Shown: one piece after another, positions 6,777 through 22,315 of the stretch
How the letters are laid out: every line of letters begins with the position of its first letter
Position numbering within the stretch: position 1 is the first letter of the stretch
Origin: a virus
Virus record (IMG/VR): IMGVR_UViG_3300030085_000253
Span: 1 to 24,279 of that record
Direction: 5' to 3' (one strand)
Length of the DNA: 24,279 bases
Notes under the pieces: generated by a model
What the model was told of the DNA's origin: nothing
Database searches by the model: none
Seen by the model: the letters and a program-made list of their open reading frames with translations, nothing else
Position numbers and translations under genes: made by a program

Positions 6777-6789
6777 TTTTATTTAATTG

Positions 6790-6819
6790 GAGGGGGTTAA
6801 TCCCCCCTCTATTTTTTTA
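6790..6819 (+). terminator. Intrinsic terminator behind the capsid gene
   Basis: A GC-rich 7-bp stem (GAGGGGG at 6790-6796, CCCCCTC at 6803-6809) closes a 6-base loop and is followed by TATTTTTTTA. This is a complete rho-independent terminator on the + strand. It lies between the capsid stop and the connector ATG at 6826. Confidence 0.85.
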
Positions 6820-8797: not shown

Positions 8798-9226
8798 ATG
8801 GCAATTTTTAACGGAACAGACCTAGTTTTAAAGGTACAAGCTGCTCAAGGTTCTGCTGATGAGTTTGTTATATTGCATTCAACTAGCTGTACTATTGATA
8901 TAGCAATGGATACAATAGACATCTCAACAAAAGACTCTGCTGGTAATAGAGAGATTATCGGTGGTCAGAAGAGCTTTACTTTAAGTGCTGACGGTCTTAT
9001 GGATTTTACAAGTAAAGCAACATCTACTGACCCAGATGAAATCTTTACTAATTTAGATAATAGAACTGCGGTAACATTTACTTTTGCTCTAGCTACTCCA
9101 GCTGGATACAAATATACTGGTAGTGGTTTCTTCACTTCAATAAGTATTACTGGCGGTGTAGAAGATGCTCCTACATTTAGTGTAAGTATTGACGGAACTG
9201 GTGATTTAGTTCAAACTGCAATCTAA
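8798..9226 (+). CDS. Major tail tube protein (TP901-1 / phage_tail_2 family)
   Basis: Repeating subunit of the tail tube. The 142-aa product shows the family pattern: MAIFNGTDLVLKV, then SCTIDIAMDTIDISTKDS near residues 27-45, an IIGGQKSFTLSADGLMDF block, ...TFTFALATPAG... and a closing strand ending FSVSIDGTGDL (described as motifs). It is the right size for a simple siphovirus tube subunit. It lies immediately before the chaperone pair and tape measure, the invariant tail order. The start is preceded by A/T-only sequence ending ATAATAAACA, again without Shine-Dalgarno. Confidence 0.9.
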   Translation: MAIFNGTDLVLKVQAAQGSADEFVILHSTSCTIDIAMDTIDISTKDSAGNREIIGGQKSFTLSADGLMDFTSKATSTDPDEIFTNLDNRTAVTFTFALATPAGYKYTGSGFFTSISITGGVEDAPTFSVSIDGTGDLVQTAI

Positions 9227-9234
9227 TAATCTAT

Positions 9235-9292
9235 TTTTGTTGGTGGAGTTGTACTACGGTACGCTCCGCTAACTTAAATAAAACCAACAAAA
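9235..9292 (+). promoter_or_regulatory. Structured RNA element between tail-tube and chaperone genes
   Basis: A perfect 10-bp inverted repeat (TTTTGTTGGT at 9235-9244, ACCAACAAAA at 9283-9292) encloses a second hairpin: GGAG 9245-9248 with CTCC 9264-9267, and inside it GTAC 9251-9254 with GTAC 9259-9262 closing a TACG loop. In RNA that loop, C(UACG)G, is of the very stable UNCG class. The 3' outer arm ends two bases before the chaperone ATG at 9295. There is no T-tract, so it is not an ordinary terminator. A role in limiting chaperone translation or in stabilising the 3' end of tail-tube mRNA is inference. Confidence 0.6.
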
Positions 9293-9294
9293 TT

Positions 9295-9651
9295 ATGTAC
9301 GAAATAGTAGTTATAAATAAAAACGATTATCCAATAAGATTTGGAATGAACTCATTAAGATTATTCTGCAAAGATACTGGAAGAACTTTGCAAGATTTAG
9401 ATAAGCTTGGTCAAGATATGAGTTTAGATGACGCATGTTATTTGATCCTAAATGGAATCAAAGACGGTTGTAGAGTTAGCGGTAAAGAATGTTCTTTAGA
9501 TATTGACCAAGTTGCTGATTTGCTTGATGAGGATTTTGAAGCACTAAACAAAGTGTTAGAAGTTTTTAGTGAGCAGTTTTCTGCTAAATTCTCTGAAGAG
9601 GATAAGGAGGGAAACGTAAAAGCTCCGAAAGGAGCGAAAGCAAAGAAGTAA
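9295..9651 (+). CDS. Tail assembly chaperone, short form (gpG-like)
   Basis: Predicted chaperone that coats the tape measure and recruits tail-tube subunits; normally absent from finished virions. The 118-aa product begins MYEIVVINKNDYPIRFGMNSLRLFC (a beta strand then a helix), continues through DDACYLILNGIKDGCRV and a DLLDEDFEALNKVLEVF helix, and ends in a charged Lys/Ala/Gly tail. The arrangement fits tail chaperones of Bacteroidota phages rather than lambda gpG itself. Near its 3' end it contains a slippery heptamer at 9609-9615 that can move ribosomes into the -1 frame, so two products are expected. Its position between tail tube and tape measure is diagnostic. Confidence 0.82.
   Translation: MYEIVVINKNDYPIRFGMNSLRLFCKDTGRTLQDLDKLGQDMSLDDACYLILNGIKDGCRVSGKECSLDIDQVADLLDEDFEALNKVLEVFSEQFSAKFSEEDKEGNVKAPKGAKAKK
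9609..9635 (+). promoter_or_regulatory. Programmed -1 ribosomal frameshift signal
   Basis: GGGAAAC at 9609-9615 is a perfect X_XXY_YYZ heptamer in the chaperone frame (..G GGA AAC). A 6-base spacer (9616-9621) is followed by a GC-rich 5-bp stem, GCTCC 9622-9626 with GGAGC 9631-9635, closed by a GAAA (GNRA) tetraloop. The -1 frame opens only at 9606, after a TAA at 9603-9605, so the heptamer sits in the short overlap where slippage is productive. Lambda uses the closely related GGGAAAG for G/GT. An AAGGAGG at 9604-9610 overlaps the site. Confidence 0.88.
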
Positions 9652-9986
9652 CATGGAATGACTTGGAAGCAGTCGCTTATGGTTTAGACTTGCTTCCTAA
9701 AGACTTCTGGAACTTAACATTCCATGAGTTCTTTTGCATACAAAAAGGGCGCAATGATAGACTAGAGATGGCAATGCGAACTGAATGGGAAAGGACCAGA
9801 TGGTTAGCATGTGTTTTATTGCAACCGCATACAAAAAAGAATAGCAATCTAACTCCCCAAAAACTAGTTAGGTTTGAATGGGAGAAAAAGGTTGAGAAGA
9901 TAGATAAAGAAGAAAGGAAAAAGAGAGCAGAATACGCTTTAAAAAAATATAAAATAGAAGATGGCACAGAAAAATCTATCGATTAA
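9615..9986 (+). CDS. Tail assembly chaperone, -1 frame extension (gpT-like part)
   Basis: This is the second part of the frameshifted chaperone. Its frame is open from 9606 and has no ATG near the beginning; the first possible initiator is a TTG at 9663, which would cut off a conserved-looking TWNDLEAVAYGLDLLP segment. Read after slippage at 9609-9615, it adds 123 residues to the first 107 of the short form, giving a 230-aa product. The pattern W-x-D-L-E-A-x-A-Y-G...P-x-x-F-W-x-L-T-x-x-E is typical of the second tail chaperone frame. The end overlaps the tape measure start by 26 bases. The long form would bind the tape measure, as lambda gpGT does. Confidence 0.82.
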   Translation, partial: RKSSERSESKEVTWNDLEAVAYGLDLLPKDFWNLTFHEFFCIQKGRNDRLEMAMRTEWERTRWLACVLLQPHTKKNSNLTPQKLVRFEWEKKVEKIDKEERKKRAEYALKKYKIEDGTEKSID

Positions 9987-11664
9987 ATTAAGTCTTAATG
10001 ACAAGCAATTCCAAAGCAATTTAAAAAAGGCAACTAGGTCTATTAATAAATTTGGAAACCAAATGAAAAGAACAGGTCAAACATTGAGCAAATCTTTGAC
10101 CGCTCCAATTCTAGCATTTGGCGCAATAAGTGTCAAAGCTTTTGATGATCAAGTTAAAGCAGAAGCAAAATTAAGAACATCATTAAAGGGTAATGAAGAT
10201 GCTTTTAAAAGACTAAAAGCTCAAGCTCAAGAACTTCAAAAAGTTACTTTATTTGGAGATGAGGCAACTATTGAAGCTCAAGCGTTTTTAGCTCAATTAG
10301 GATTAACTGAAAGTGCTATCTTAAAGTTGACTCCGTTAGTTCAAGACTTTGCAGCAGCTCAAGGAATCCAATTAACTGACGCTGCTAAATTAGTAGCTAA
10401 ATCAGTTGGCTCAAGTACAAACGCTTTAAGTAGATATGGAATAACAATAGAGGGTGAAGTAGGAAGCACCGAAAGACTAGAAAGCGCAGTCAATGCTTTA
10501 ACTACTGCTTTTGGAGGTACTTCTGAAGCTATTTCTAAAGTTGGACTTGGACCATTAGAACAACTTAAAAATCAATTAGGAGATGTATCCGAACAGTTTG
10601 GCTCAATAGTTTTAGAAGGTATTGAACCGTTAAAAACTGGACTTCAAAAATTAGCTGATTTATTAAGTAATTTAACAAAAGAACAAAAAGAGAATATTGT
10701 CAAGTTCGCAGCTCTTGCTGCTGCAATAGGACCAATAGTTATAATACTAGGAAGCTTAATAACTTCAATAGGTGCTATCATTCCATTGGTTGTGAAGCTA
10801 GTAGCGGTGTTTAATCCAATGGTTGCTTTGGGTGTAGCGGTGGCTGGTAGCTTAACATTTGTGGCTAAAAAATTAGGTCTTTTCAGAAAAGAAATAAAAA
10901 AGACTAATGAAGAATCTAAAAAAGTAGACCCTAATAGTATTTTAGGGGGTATGATGTCTGGAGATACAAAGAATCCAGTTACTGGAAAAGCATTTACCAC
11001 TCCAAAAAAACAAAAAACAACAGCACCATCTTTCAAAAAAAGTCCATTAACTCAAGCGGTAGAACCAATTAAAGCTCTTAATGTTGAGCTTAAAGATGTT
11101 TCTAAAAATACCATGAAAGCGGTTGAGGGTGTTCAAACAATGACTGAAACATTTACACCACTTCAAGAAGTTATAAATTCATTAAATGAATCATTAGTAA
11201 CTATTGGACTTCAATTAGGAAATACTTTTTTACAAGGAGCGCAATCAATACAAGAGTTTGGAACTGCGGTTAAGATGGCTGCAAAAGAAGCTATTGGAGC
11301 ATTTATAGCTCAAGGTGTTGCTGCTGCAATTTCATCTTCTTTAAAAAATCCAGCTTTTGCACTTAACCCAGCTCTTATACCAATAGTTGCTGGTTTAGCT
11401 GGGGGTTTAGCAAAGACTGCATTTAACGAAATAATTCCAGAATTTGCAGACGGTGGAATCGTAAGCGGACCAACAATGGGACTAATCGGAGAGTATCCTG
11501 GTGCATCTGCGAATCCAGAAGTTATCGCTCCATTAGATAAGCTTAAAAATATGATTGGAGGAGCTGGAGGTTCGGTTCAAGTATTTGGCTCAATAAGTGG
11601 GTCTGACATACTTTTAAGCAGTGATAGAGCAAAAAATAATAGAAATAGAACAAGAGGATACTAA
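9961..11664 (+). CDS. Tail tape measure protein
   Basis: Sets tail length and takes part in DNA ejection. The 567-aa product starts inside the chaperone gene. It shows a Lys/Asn/Gln-rich amphipathic N-terminus (LNDKQFQSNLKKATRSINKF), an alpha-helical phage-tail repeat region with TLSKSLTAPILAFG near residue 41, a strongly hydrophobic block at about 249-302 that could span a membrane, and a C-terminal FADGGIVSGPTMGLIGE motif (about residues 494-510) typical of tape measures. At about 0.15 nm per residue this predicts a short tail of roughly 85 nm. No muralytic domain is visible. The stop overlaps the next ATG by one base. Confidence 0.92.
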   Translation: MAQKNLSIKLSLNDKQFQSNLKKATRSINKFGNQMKRTGQTLSKSLTAPILAFGAISVKAFDDQVKAEAKLRTSLKGNEDAFKRLKAQAQELQKVTLFGDEATIEAQAFLAQLGLTESAILKLTPLVQDFAAAQGIQLTDAAKLVAKSVGSSTNALSRYGITIEGEVGSTERLESAVNALTTAFGGTSEAISKVGLGPLEQLKNQLGDVSEQFGSIVLEGIEPLKTGLQKLADLLSNLTKEQKENIVKFAALAAAIGPIVIILGSLITSIGAIIPLVVKLVAVFNPMVALGVAVAGSLTFVAKKLGLFRKEIKKTNEESKKVDPNSILGGMMSGDTKNPVTGKAFTTPKKQKTTAPSFKKSPLTQAVEPIKALNVELKDVSKNTMKAVEGVQTMTETFTPLQEVINSLNESLVTIGLQLGNTFLQGAQSIQEFGTAVKMAAKEAIGAFIAQGVAAAISSSLKNPAFALNPALIPIVAGLAGGLAKTAFNEIIPEFADGGIVSGPTMGLIGEYPGASANPEVIAPLDKLKNMIGGAGGSVQVFGSISGSDILLSSDRAKNNRNRTRGY

Positions 11665-19037: not shown

Positions 19038-19454
19038 ATGCACGAAATAGAGAAATTAATAAAAGAAAGAGAAACGGTTGATGCAATAGTTAAGACAGTT
19101 TGTATGGTTCTTAAAGTCAAAGAAAAAGACTTTAAAACAAAAAGCAGAGAAAGACATTTAATGGATGCTCGGAGCATGATCTACGCTTGTTGTAATGACA
19201 TTCTTGACATTGGATGTTCTGCTATAAGTAGGTACTTTAAAATGAATCATGCCACTATAATTCATCATTTAAAAAAGCACAAATCCTTAATAGATTTTGA
19301 TAGTGTTTATGCGGAAAGATATGAAGCTATTGTTATGCTTATAAAGTCTAAAATTGGTTATGTAGAAGATAGTGAAATCATTGACGAACTAATAAGAATA
19401 AAGAAAGAAAGAGCATTAAAACTAGAAATGATAAAAGAACATTTAAATAACTAA
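19038..19454 (+). CDS. Free-standing DnaA domain IV (Bac_DnaA_C-like) protein
   Basis: The 138-aa product contains the DNA-binding domain of DnaA without the AAA+ ATPase. The pattern SRERHLMDARSMIYACCNDI at about 36-55 corresponds to the R-x-R...AR...IY-L helix of domain IV. SAISRYFKMNHATIIHHLKKH at about 61-81 (split here into SAISRYFKMN and HATIIHHLKKH) matches the G-x-x-F-x-R-x-H-(S/T)-T-V-x-H signature, with NHATIIHH at 70-77. It may bind DnaA boxes at the phage or host origin, acting as a loader, competitor or transcription regulator. It lies two genes before the initiator with the candidate origin. Confidence 0.8.
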   Translation: MHEIEKLIKERETVDAIVKTVCMVLKVKEKDFKTKSRERHLMDARSMIYACCNDILDIGCSAISRYFKMNHATIIHHLKKHKSLIDFDSVYAERYEAIVMLIKSKIGYVEDSEIIDELIRIKKERALKLEMIKEHLNN

Positions 19455-19456
19455 TT

Positions 19457-19768
19457 ATGATAAAAGCTAAAGACAAAGTTTTAAAACTACTACAAGAAAA
19501 TCCATCCAATAGAGATAGCGACAATAAATTAATAGCTAACTTCTGGTTTTATGAGATCAAAGCAATGGGAAAAGACCCAAACACATTAACCGCTTTTGGT
19601 TTGTTAGATTTAATGAGTAAATCCAAGCTAACTAATACCGAAACCATTACAAGGGTTAGAAGGCAAATACAAGAGCAAAACAAAGAGTTAAGAGGTCAAA
19701 ACTACATTAACCGTCAAACTAAATTACAAAACAAAGTAAAGCTTGAATTGGGATATGAAGTTAATTAG
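19457..19768 (+). CDS. Conserved phage protein of unknown function, 103 aa
   Basis: A helical basic protein with the recurring phage pattern of K-V-L-x-L-L-x-x-x-P-x-x-R-D-x-D (IKAKDKVLKLLQENPSNRDS), ...LIANFWFYEIKAMG..., and a C-terminal ETITRVRRQIQEQNKELRGQ helix followed by INRQTKL. I have seen this layout in early regions of many phages, usually without assigned function; a DNA-binding role would fit the basic TRVRRQIQEQ helix. It starts three bases after the DnaA-like gene and its end overlaps the initiator gene by 14 bases. Confidence 0.7.
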   Translation: MIKAKDKVLKLLQENPSNRDSDNKLIANFWFYEIKAMGKDPNTLTAFGLLDLMSKSKLTNTETITRVRRQIQEQNKELRGQNYINRQTKLQNKVKLELGYEVN

Positions 19769-20453
19769 AGTTGAAAAAGATAACAATTACACCACTATTA
19801 ACAATGAGTTCATCTTTAATAAAAACATGAGCTTAAAGTCTAAAGGGTTGCTTTGCCATCTATTGGCTTTGCCAAATGACTGGAAGTTATATGTTGAGGA
19901 GGTCGAAAAGTGGCACAAAGACGGTAAAAGCTCTATTTATAGCGCATTTAAAGAGCTAAAAGAACTTGGTTATATGTCAAGAGAACAAATTAGAGTAGAT
20001 GGTAAATTTAAAGGTTATTCTTATGTAGTTTATGAAAAACCGTATTTAGATAAACCGAATACGGAAAAACCGAATACGGAAAAACCGAATACGGAAAATC
20101 GACCACTACTAAAGACTAATAATACTAAAGACTTAATTAAACTAAATACTAATAAAACTAAAGGGTTTGATTATCCAGTTGAATTAAATGTCGAAGCTTG
20201 GGAGCTTTGGAAAGAGTTTAGAAAAAAAGAGTTTAGGGCATCTTATAAATCATTAGGAGAACGCTCTGCAATTAGTAAGCTTTTGCGCTTGGCTGGTTCG
20301 GACTTTCAACTACAAGCGGACATTTTGAGACAATCAATGGAAAACGGTTGGAAGGGGATTTTCGAGTATAAAGAAAAAAGAAGTAAGACCGTTGAGGTGT
20401 TAAGTGAATATCAAAAGGCAATAGATTTAATAAATAAAGAATACAATGACTAA
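19755..20453 (+). CDS. Replication initiator-like protein with N-terminal winged helix
   Basis: The 232-aa product starts with a RepA_N/helix-turn-helix type domain: FIFNKNMSLKSKGLLCHLLAL, NDWKLYVEEVEKWHKDGKSS and AFKELKELGYMSREQIR, with the S-x-K-x-K-G-L-L and K-D-G-K...A...L...GY pattern of phage and plasmid initiators. A low-complexity linker (KPNTE three times) connects to a C-terminal domain with WELWKEFRKKE, SAISKLLRLA and ENGWKGIF, resembling DnaD-like or replisome-recruiting tails. ATG at 19755 is preferred over TTG at 19743. Like lambda O, its coding sequence carries direct repeats in the linker (20037-20096), which may be the origin. No helicase or polymerase is encoded nearby, so the host replisome is probably recruited. 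Confidence 0.8.
   Translation: MKLIRVEKDNNYTTINNEFIFNKNMSLKSKGLLCHLLALPNDWKLYVEEVEKWHKDGKSSIYSAFKELKELGYMSREQIRVDGKFKGYSYVVYEKPYLDKPNTEKPNTEKPNTENRPLLKTNNTKDLIKLNTNKTKGFDYPVELNVEAWELWKEFRKKEFRASYKSLGERSAISKLLRLAGSDFQLQADILRQSMENGWKGIFEYKEKRSKTVEVLSEYQKAIDLINKEYND
20037..20179 (+). repeat. Iteron-like and AT-rich repeats inside the initiator gene, candidate replication origin
   Basis: The 15-bp unit AAACCGAATACGGAA occurs three times end to end (20052-20066, 20067-20081, 20082-20096) with a degenerate fourth copy before it (20037-20051, 10 of 15 identical). Each unit has CCG/CGG half-sites. Next, an AT-rich tract carries ACTAAA(G/T)-type repeats at 20108, 20124, 20141 and 20157, spaced 16-17 bp. 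TTATCCAGT at 20171-20179 matches the DnaA-box consensus TTATCCACA at seven of nine positions. Iterons, then an AT-rich unwinding-like tract, then a possible DnaA box is the layout of lambda-type and plasmid origins. Confidence 0.65.
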
Positions 20454-21100: not shown

Positions 21101-21473
21101 ACTAAAGAAGAAGTTAGATAAGATATTTAGTGAGTACATTAGATTAAGGGACTCTGATTATAAGGGTAATTGTAAATGTATAAGTTGTGGGAAAGAAGCT
21201 CCAGCTTTTGGTGGTTCTATTCATGCTGGGCATCTATTTAGTAGAAGATATTTAGCTACAAGATATGATGAAAAAAATGTCAATGCTCAATGTAATTATT
21301 GTAATACTTTTTTAAATGGGAATCAGATCAAAGCATCAAGAGGAGTAGAAAACAAATGGGGAAAAGGAACAGTTGAAGATATAGAGAGTAGAATCCACAT
21401 TACTGTTAAACTAACTAGAGTTGATTATGAAGAGTCGATTGAATACTATAAGAAAAAAATTAAAGAATTATGA
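21084..21473 (+). CDS. NinG-like recombination endonuclease (Rap family)
   Basis: Predicted structure-specific nuclease acting on branched DNA during phage recombination. The 129-aa product shows the NinG layout: a basic LKKKLDKIFSEYIRLRD start, the zinc knuckle CISC (32-35), a GSIHAGHLFSRRY segment with H47 and H50, RYDEKNVNAQC and the second knuckle CNYC (70-73), then NTFLNGNQ. The lambda NinG family has the same IRLRD, CxSC, AGH and haQCxxCN blocks. It is shorter than lambda NinG because the N-terminal extension is absent. It overlaps the PP-loop gene by four bases (ATGA). Confidence 0.9.
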   Translation: MATISKLKKKLDKIFSEYIRLRDSDYKGNCKCISCGKEAPAFGGSIHAGHLFSRRYLATRYDEKNVNAQCNYCNTFLNGNQIKASRGVENKWGKGTVEDIESRIHITVKLTRVDYEESIEYYKKKIKEL

Positions 21474-22315
21474 AGGAGTTATTAGTTTGCACTTTTAGTG
21501 GTGGAAGGACATCAGCATTTATGAGTCAATACATTTTAAATAGTAGTAAATACGATAATTTTGAAAAGATATTTATTTTTGCAAATACTGGAAAAGAACG
21601 AAAAGAAACTTTAGACTTTATTAATAAATGCGACTCTCAATGGAATCTAAATATAATTTGGCTAGAAGCTAAAATTAATGAAACAAAAGGAGTAGGGACC
21701 TCATATAATATTGTAGATTATAAAAACGCAGATAGGACTGGTAAAGTCTTTGAAAGAATGTTGAAAAAATATCCACTACCAAATGCTTTTGCTAGTAATT
21801 GTACTAGAGAGCTAAAATTAAAGCCAATAGAAAAATATGTTAAAGATTTAGGATATGATAGTTATACAACTGCTTTAGGTATTAGATATGATGAAAGACA
21901 TAGAAAATCTTTAAAAGCTAAAGAGAACAAAATAATTTATCCATTATGTGATGATATTAAAGTAGACGGAGCATTTATAAGAAAGTGGTGGGAAAGACAA
22001 ACATTTGACTTAAAATTAAAGGACTACGAAGGGAATTGCGATTTATGTTTTAAAAAGTCAGTCAGAAAGAGAATGACGTTAATAAAAGAAAATAAAGATA
22101 TTGCAAAATGGTGGATTAATATGGAGTCTAAATATGGAAATGAAGTAGTTCCGAGATTTGATTTGAGAAGTAACTTGTCCATAGAAGAAATAGTAAAAAA
22201 AGCACAAGAACCTTTTCAATCTGTCGAGGATGTGTATGAATTAAGTAAAAAACAAGTATCAATTTTTAATGAAGATTTAGATTATGAAACGGATTGTTTC
22301 TGCAAAGCTAATTGA
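21470..22315 (+). CDS. PP-loop ATP pyrophosphatase (PAPS reductase-like) with Cys clusters
   Basis: The 281-aa product has the PP-loop SGGRTS at residues 10-15, an ANTGKER turn at 38-44, NCTRELKLKP at 110-119 and GIRYDE at 137-142, all features of adenine-nucleotide alpha hydrolases in the PAPS-reductase/DndC group. Cysteines at C111, C190-x-x-C193 and C276-x-C278 could hold a metal or iron-sulfur cluster. Enzymes of this group adenylate or transfer sulfur. A DNA- or tRNA-modifying role is possible, and assimilatory PAPS reduction is less likely in a phage. DndB, DndD and DndE partners are absent here. It is coupled to NinG and overlaps the tiny gene at 22284. Confidence 0.82.
   Translation: MKELLVCTFSGGRTSAFMSQYILNSSKYDNFEKIFIFANTGKERKETLDFINKCDSQWNLNIIWLEAKINETKGVGTSYNIVDYKNADRTGKVFERMLKKYPLPNAFASNCTRELKLKPIEKYVKDLGYDSYTTALGIRYDERHRKSLKAKENKIIYPLCDDIKVDGAFIRKWWERQTFDLKLKDYEGNCDLCFKKSVRKRMTLIKENKDIAKWWINMESKYGNEVVPRFDLRSNLSIEEIVKKAQEPFQSVEDVYELSKKQVSIFNEDLDYETDCFCKAN

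Follow-up and report, generated by a model that had tools for sequence, protein, structure and literature searches.

A probable −1 programmed frameshift cassette in a tail assembly chaperone gene of an uncultured phage group, with a minimal, covarying hairpin

The tail chaperone locus

The stretch of DNA analysed here (hereafter the window) is 24,279 bases long and comes from a virus record in IMG/VR; its head and tail genes follow one another on the + strand in the order terminase, portal, protease, capsid, connector and terminator genes, tail tube, chaperone gene and tape measure. The chaperone gene pair sits between the gene for the major tail (tube) protein (8798..9226; PF06199, E 1.1e-13; phrog_1407, E 3.7e-20) and that for the tape measure protein (9961..11664; phrog_1293, E 1.2e-20), and all of the features described below are likewise on the + strand. 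The first member of the pair, ORF1 (9295..9651), begins at ATG 9295 and encodes, in the zero frame, a putative short tail assembly chaperone of 118 aa that is lambda gpG-like. Within it lies the slippery heptamer GGGAAAC (9609..9615), read in the phase G_GGA_AAC with the zero-frame codons GGA (9610-9612) and AAC (9613-9615). The heptamer is followed by the 6-nt spacer GTAAAA (9616..9621), the 5′ arm of a hairpin, GCTCC (9622..9626), a GAAA loop (9627..9630) and the 3′ arm, GGAGC (9631..9635). The stem comprises 5 bp, four G-C pairs and one A-U pair, and the zero-frame stop codon of ORF1, TAA (9649..9651), comes 33 nt past the heptamer. The second member of the pair, ORF2 (9606..9986), encodes a T-like protein in the −1 frame, which is shut by TAA at 9603-9605, open from 9606 and closed by TAA at 9984-9986, overlapping the start of the tape measure gene (9961). 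A shift at the heptamer would add 123 residues of ORF2 (9615-9983) to 107 residues of ORF1, giving a predicted fusion of 230 aa with the junction ...EDKEGN-RKSSER... The positions of the heptamer, spacer, stem and loop, the phase, and the limits of the −1 frame, as given in the initial annotation of this DNA, were all confirmed on the sequence.

What kinds of protein do the two frames encode? The AlphaFold model of ORF1 (pLDDT 80) matched predicted viral tail assembly chaperones in Foldseek (E 8.5e-6, TM 0.73), the top match being named 'Tail assembly chaperone protein', and ORF1 also matched the tail protein family phrog_2115 (E 1.2e-4). The Pfam domain Phage_TAC_6 was found in 15/15 aligned members of ORF2 (best E 6.6e-8), the ORF2 of the window itself giving a weak match under the curated cut-off (E 0.0093), and one aligned member matched Minor tail protein T (E 2.8e-4). 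Among solved structures, there was no relevant match for ORF1, either by sequence or by fold, or for ORF2 by sequence. As modelled, ORF1 folds like tail assembly chaperones, and sequence comparison places ORF2 in Phage_TAC_6, in keeping with the earlier proposal that the −1 frame encodes a conserved chaperone domain. A single protein, A0A0K1LMC7 (247 aa), matches both the ORF1 and the ORF2 models, as expected of a G-T fusion. Furthermore, the related locus L286 (2144-2809) has a Phage_TAC_11-like domain and a Phage_TAC_6 domain in one unbroken frame, in which the long form needs no frameshift; because both domains are carried there uninterrupted, the fusion would be a workable product.

Several other elements of the window may be recorded here. 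A strong hairpin (9232-9290; MFE −25.3 kcal/mol, z −7.1) lies between the tail tube gene and ORF1. All of the distinct upstream regions of relatives (67/67) fold, at −10 to −27 kcal/mol and with varying sequence; an alignment of 12 of these hairpins contains 18 pairs, 6 of them with double changes. In 108/111 loci, an upstream stretch is complementary to the bases right before the ORF1 ATG (e.g., TTTTGTTGG/CCAACAAAA and TTTATCGTT/AACGATAAA), a pairing that could occlude the ORF1 start and that makes the region a candidate expression-control element. Directly 3′ of the capsid gene, at 6787-6817, there is a terminator-like inverted repeat, GGAGGGGG...CCCCCCTC, followed by TATTTTTT. Farther downstream, the small protein encoded at 19038-19454, close to a replication-initiation-like protein (19743-20453), carries a DnaA C-terminal DNA-binding domain (PF08299, E 1.9e-12), and the protein encoded at 21470-22315 has a phosphoadenosine phosphosulfate reductase domain, which is often found among phage auxiliary genes. 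Many of the longest related contigs (L009, L019, L038, L043, L062 and L128) are 23-26.5 kb in length, like the window, which hints at a small siphovirus genome of about 23-26.5 kb.

Conservation of the heptamer and covariation of the hairpin

How far could chance explain such a cassette? In-phase heptamers of the form XXXYYYZ number 67 in the 6,397 codons of the window (approximately 1 per 95 codons), and because they are so common, the heptamer alone is weak evidence. GGGAAAC itself is present once in the whole 24 kb, both strands counted, and 0.033% of window positions have, exactly 6 nt downstream, a stem of 5 bp or more in which 4 or more pairs are G-C. The local fold at 9616-9645 has a z score of −4.4, but a 72-nt fold is unremarkable (z = −1.3). 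In the single sequence, the cassette is suggestive; its conservation among relatives puts the signal far past chance.

A first scan of IMG/VR with ORF1 yielded 80 loci of 77-99% identity, all of which carry GGGAAAC in phase (80/80), and further scans extended this to 111 distinct loci, none of them truncated and all from one phage group and one collection (IMG/VR), 108 of which have GGGAAAC. The Gly codon GGA and the Asn codon AAC of the heptamer show zero synonymous variation (108/108 each); synonymous variation is seen in the other conserved columns of ORF1, at 5/5 other Gly and 4/4 other Asn. In a three-locus sister clade (L128, L151 and L205), the heptamer position is occupied by A_AAA_AAG. 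The codon preceding the heptamer codons is GAG in 107 of the 110 loci with Glu at this point and GAA in the remaining three, GAA being the codon required for A_AAA_AAG. On a tree built from the flanking coding sequence, with the cassette excluded, the heptamer changes once and the stem type switches at least 18 times; recombination may inflate the count of stem changes and explain some of these switches. Two other candidate heptamers were set aside. In many relatives, GGGAAAC is preceded at a distance of about 57 nt by T_TTA_AAT, an accidental result of coding for Leu-Asn that is missing from the window and lies outside the ORF1/ORF2 overlap, and an A_AAA_AAG near the stop codon in two loci (L015 and L038) is sporadic.

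The geometry of the downstream element is constant and its letters are not. The spacer measures 6 nt in 111/111 loci, in seven different sequences, and the 5-bp stem is intact in 110/111. Five paired versions of the stem occur, namely GCTCC/GGAGC, GCTCC/GGGGC (with one G-U pair), GCCAC/GTGGC, GCCGC/GCGGC and GGAGC/GCTCC, and the loop is 4, 7, 9 or 13 nt long. The last of these stems is that of the sister clade, which keeps the 6-nt spacer, has a loop of 9 nt and, compared with the window, has the three middle pairs all reversed. Where the hairpin is intact, it folds at about −8 to −11 kcal/mol, with −11 kcal/mol for L128. The sole broken stem, in L055 (467-1152), has an A.G mismatch at pair 4. 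L055 is identical in the tree columns to L057, whose stem is intact, and because L057 keeps the pair while being identical outside the cassette, the mismatch may be a sequencing error or a recent mutation.

To measure covariation, 14 distinct cassettes were aligned by structure with their loops excised, because MAFFT alignment of whole cassettes, with their loops of differing length, broke the stems. In this alignment, 98.6% of the cells are paired, compared with 80.6% after shuffling. Three of the five stem pairs are altered on both sides in a compensatory manner, and the covariation score is 0.505, against 0.127 for shuffled alignments (0/500 as high) and at most 0.104 for controls with slid partners. 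A search of Rfam gave no match. With a structure that starts 6 nt past the heptamer, within the range of 5-8 nt, and compensatory upkeep of its pairing, the cassette resembles frameshift signals of the 3′ hairpin-stimulated type. We consider this covarying hairpin to be the most valuable part of the finding. The alignment test that the initial annotation had proposed came out as it anticipated: codons and stem letters differ among the relatives, and the heptamer, spacer and stem persist.

Might the heptamer nevertheless work without stimulation by the hairpin, the pairing being kept for some other reason, such as protein coding in two frames or RNA stability? In A-rich RNA, a hairpin with a tetraloop could serve to stabilise the mRNA, and in the distant loci L202 and L287, a stop codon comes right after the heptamer and no stem was found at 6 nt. 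However, the distance from the heptamer is constant while the loop length and the letters vary, the stem persists where the heptamer is replaced (the L128 clade), and Paenibacillus phage PG1, a distant relative, also combines GGGAAAC with a hairpin, which starts 8 nt downstream. We therefore think it unlikely that the hairpin is not a stimulator.

Entry into the second frame and the translational context

ORF2 evolves as a coding sequence: its nucleotide diversity peaks at its own third codon positions (0.176, 0.097 and 0.378 at positions 1, 2 and 3, respectively). How, then, is it translated? One possibility is that it is made separately, from its own start or by re-initiation past the ORF1 stop, the heptamer being incidental. 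Re-initiation is common in phage gene chains, and just past the end of ORF1 the window has an ATG (9653) and, as the first in-frame start-type codon of ORF2, a TTG (9663). However, ATG 9653 belongs to the third frame, where a TGA ends translation two codons later, and most relatives carry TAACTTGG there; in 16 loci, the examined stretch contains no ATG at all. An in-frame ATG, GTG or TTG before the conserved TW(D/N)xLE motif of ORF2 was found in 0/111 loci, the first such codon coming 4 to 101 codons past the motif, which bears out and extends the earlier remark that the second frame has no ATG near its beginning. The invariant heptamer, spacer and stem would also be left unexplained. A second frame preceded by its own ATG and accompanied by no conserved heptamer, the arrangement that had been named as evidence against frameshifting, was found in 0/111 loci. 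Separate synthesis of ORF2 is, in our judgement, very improbable.

The sequence AAGGAGG, which overlaps the heptamer in the window and had been singled out as an oddity, did not hold up as a feature of the locus: it is present in only 2/50 unique cassettes, and it overlaps the heptamer rather than preceding it. Because it is not conserved, it is not part of the signal, and a role as an internal Shine-Dalgarno (SD) stimulator of the dnaX type was rejected on the same ground. Moreover, Bacteroidota ribosomes occlude their anti-SD (PMC9976891), so an internal SD would not be expected to act in such a host.

Does the phage infect a member of the Bacteroidota? An SD core lies upstream of 2/33 window genes, as against 11% of random 15-mers, and adenine is abundant in the start regions (73% at −12 and 64% at −13), a pattern like that of Flavobacterium johnsoniae start regions (PMC6847099). 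ORF2 is weakly similar to Bacteroides phages. These SD-less, A-rich starts and weak similarities make a Bacteroidota host plausible from sequence. The host is inferred, since confirmation came neither from a prophage or isolate nor from a close relative of the terminase: a search for prophages and hosts found no close relative in genome contigs (two scans) or among annotated phages, and the nearest TerL relatives are from Firmicutes phages (44-45% identity). The Bacteroidota promoter motif TAnnTTTG, sought also in a longer form, is not enriched (42 against 35 expected). Of the earlier suggestion of a Bacteroidota host that does not use SD sequences, the scarcity of SD cores stands and the host is plausible; no close relative that would tie the phage to such a host was found in genomes or phage records.

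The frameshift reading and its relation to known systems

We interpret the cassette as a −1 programmed ribosomal frameshift signal of the lambda G/GT kind in a tail assembly chaperone gene, and on the comparative evidence we give this reading a probability of roughly 94%. Ribosomes translating ORF1 would arrive at GGA_AAC as the 5-bp hairpin, 6 nt downstream, meets the mRNA entrance and slows them. In a minority of passages, tRNA-Gly and tRNA-Asn would move back by one base to pair with GGG and AAA, and ORF2 would then be translated. Two products are predicted, a G-like chaperone of 118 aa in abundance and, less often, a G-T fusion of 230 aa. The central proposal of the initial annotation, that the fusion is made beside the short form, is supported by conservation and covariation. 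In the window, trypsin would yield a junction peptide of just four residues, EGNR; relatives with the GCCAC/GTGGC stem would yield FETEGNR from the fusion and FETEGNDK from the short form. By analogy with lambda, the G part might bind the tape measure and the T part might recruit the tail tube subunit. Counting against this reading are the short stem (5 bp), the low efficiency of the heptamer in E. coli, the mismatch in L055, the origin of all loci from one phage group and one collection, the possible effect of recombination on the count of stem changes, and two distant relatives, one of which (L282) shows no canonical heptamer at the overlap while the other (L286) needs none.

Tail chaperone −1 frameshifting is well known. 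What the sequences appear to add is a phage group of which no description was found in the open-licence papers searched, a covarying minimal hairpin and one replacement of the heptamer. A guess from a single sequence has been replaced by an evolutionary test, in which the heptamer was replaced once and the stem was rewritten many times at constant geometry. Because stem and heptamer are both replaced while the geometry is constant, the relatives supply natural variants, with five versions of the stem, loops of four lengths and two heptamers, on which the role of the 3′ hairpin in tail chaperone frameshifting can be tested. The finding also bears on the annotation of an uncultured but abundant group of phages, in whose genomes the two parts would otherwise pass for unrelated small proteins.

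G_GGA_AAC is a low-efficiency heptamer in E. coli, although it is probably used by insertion sequences (PMC4066793). Because GGGAAAC is inefficient in E. coli, its presence here raises the question of whether SD-less ribosomes obey the E. coli slippery-site rules. We offer, as a speculation that we hold to be rather unlikely, that in this large uncultured group SD-independent ribosomes of the Bacteroidota type slip readily from Asn-AAC and are tuned by a tiny hairpin, selection holding G_GGA_AAC and a 5-bp stem at 6 nt. If this were true, there would be a host-specific −1 frameshift rule, differing from that of E. coli.

Farther relatives show a range of overlaps. IMG/VR loci with 31-56% similar ORF2 mostly have the same overlap, with GGGAAAG, GGGAAAC, AAAAAAC or AAAAAAG, and in L282 (2136-2806), where the chaperone ORFs overlap by 97 nt, no canonical in-phase heptamer was found. 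Flavobacterium phage 11b and Bacteroides phages F1, F2 and F4, which are cultivated Bacteroidota phages, have a related chaperone pair with the second ORF in the −1 frame, but where the ORFs overlap they have, in place of GGGAAAC, runs of about nine A, and the hairpin at 6 nt was not found in them. In 11b (L306, 857-1521) and F4 (L082, 3681-4333), the pair, with ORF2 in the −1 frame, is annotated as separate hypothetical genes, and transcriptional and ribosomal slippage are both possible at these overlaps. Could transcriptional slippage also yield the fusion in the group studied here? Polymerase could slip on such A-runs, and the L128 clade has seven A. However, the usual polymerase slippage needs longer runs than the G3A3 of the window. 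Moreover, a hairpin at a fixed distance of 6 nt suits ribosomal frameshift stimulators, which generally begin 5-8 nt downstream (PMC4066793). We give transcriptional slippage next to no weight, and the ribosomal reading is kept. The gene pair is also present in a cultivated flavobacterial phage, Cellulophaga phage phi18:1 (gp56/gp57; L304, 30231-30942), in which gp57, across A9 from gp56, is shifted to the +1/−2 frame and has in-frame ATGs at its start; the direction or mechanism of the shift may differ there.

The E. coli dnaX signal (an SD-like element, A_AAA_AAG and a hairpin) resembles the cassette in combining a heptamer with a hairpin, and the L128 clade uses its heptamer. It differs in that the present cassette is without a conserved upstream SD-like element, has a stem of just 5 bp and belongs to a tail chaperone gene. 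GGGAAAC is not new for a tail chaperone gene: it has been predicted for Burkholderia phage KL1 (PMC3483164), Caulobacter phage Colossus (PMC3556154) and halovirus HCTV-1 (PMC5009743), where the identical heptamer has the same functional place in phages of unrelated hosts and the passages on it mention no downstream structure. The lambda-type −1 frameshift and the roles of G and T in tails are treated in the last of these papers (PMC5009743).

Another parallel is the PANG_00010/00011 pair of Paenibacillus phage PG1 (HQ332138). Its first ORF is homologous to ORF1 (approximately 29% identity) and has GGGAAAC where the EGN residues align; its −1 frame is homologous too, and a hairpin of 5-6 bp (GCCGG/CCGGC) starts 8 nt past the heptamer. 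It differs in having a Gram-positive host and in being annotated as two hypothetical proteins, with no mention of a frameshift; a search with its ORF1 found no further relatives. The general model is lambda G/GT, whose frameshift, with that of its relatives, was reportedly described by Xu et al. in 2004. The order of tail tube, chaperone pair and tape measure, the −1 shift close to where the first gene ends, the heptamer beginning G_GGA_AA, the second domain without its own start and the expectation of two products are all alike. In contrast, the lambda heptamer ends in G (Lys) and the present one in C (Asn), ORF1 is not recognisably lambda G by sequence, ORF2 belongs by its sequence to Phage_TAC_6 rather than to lambda T, and here a conserved, covarying hairpin stands 6 nt downstream.
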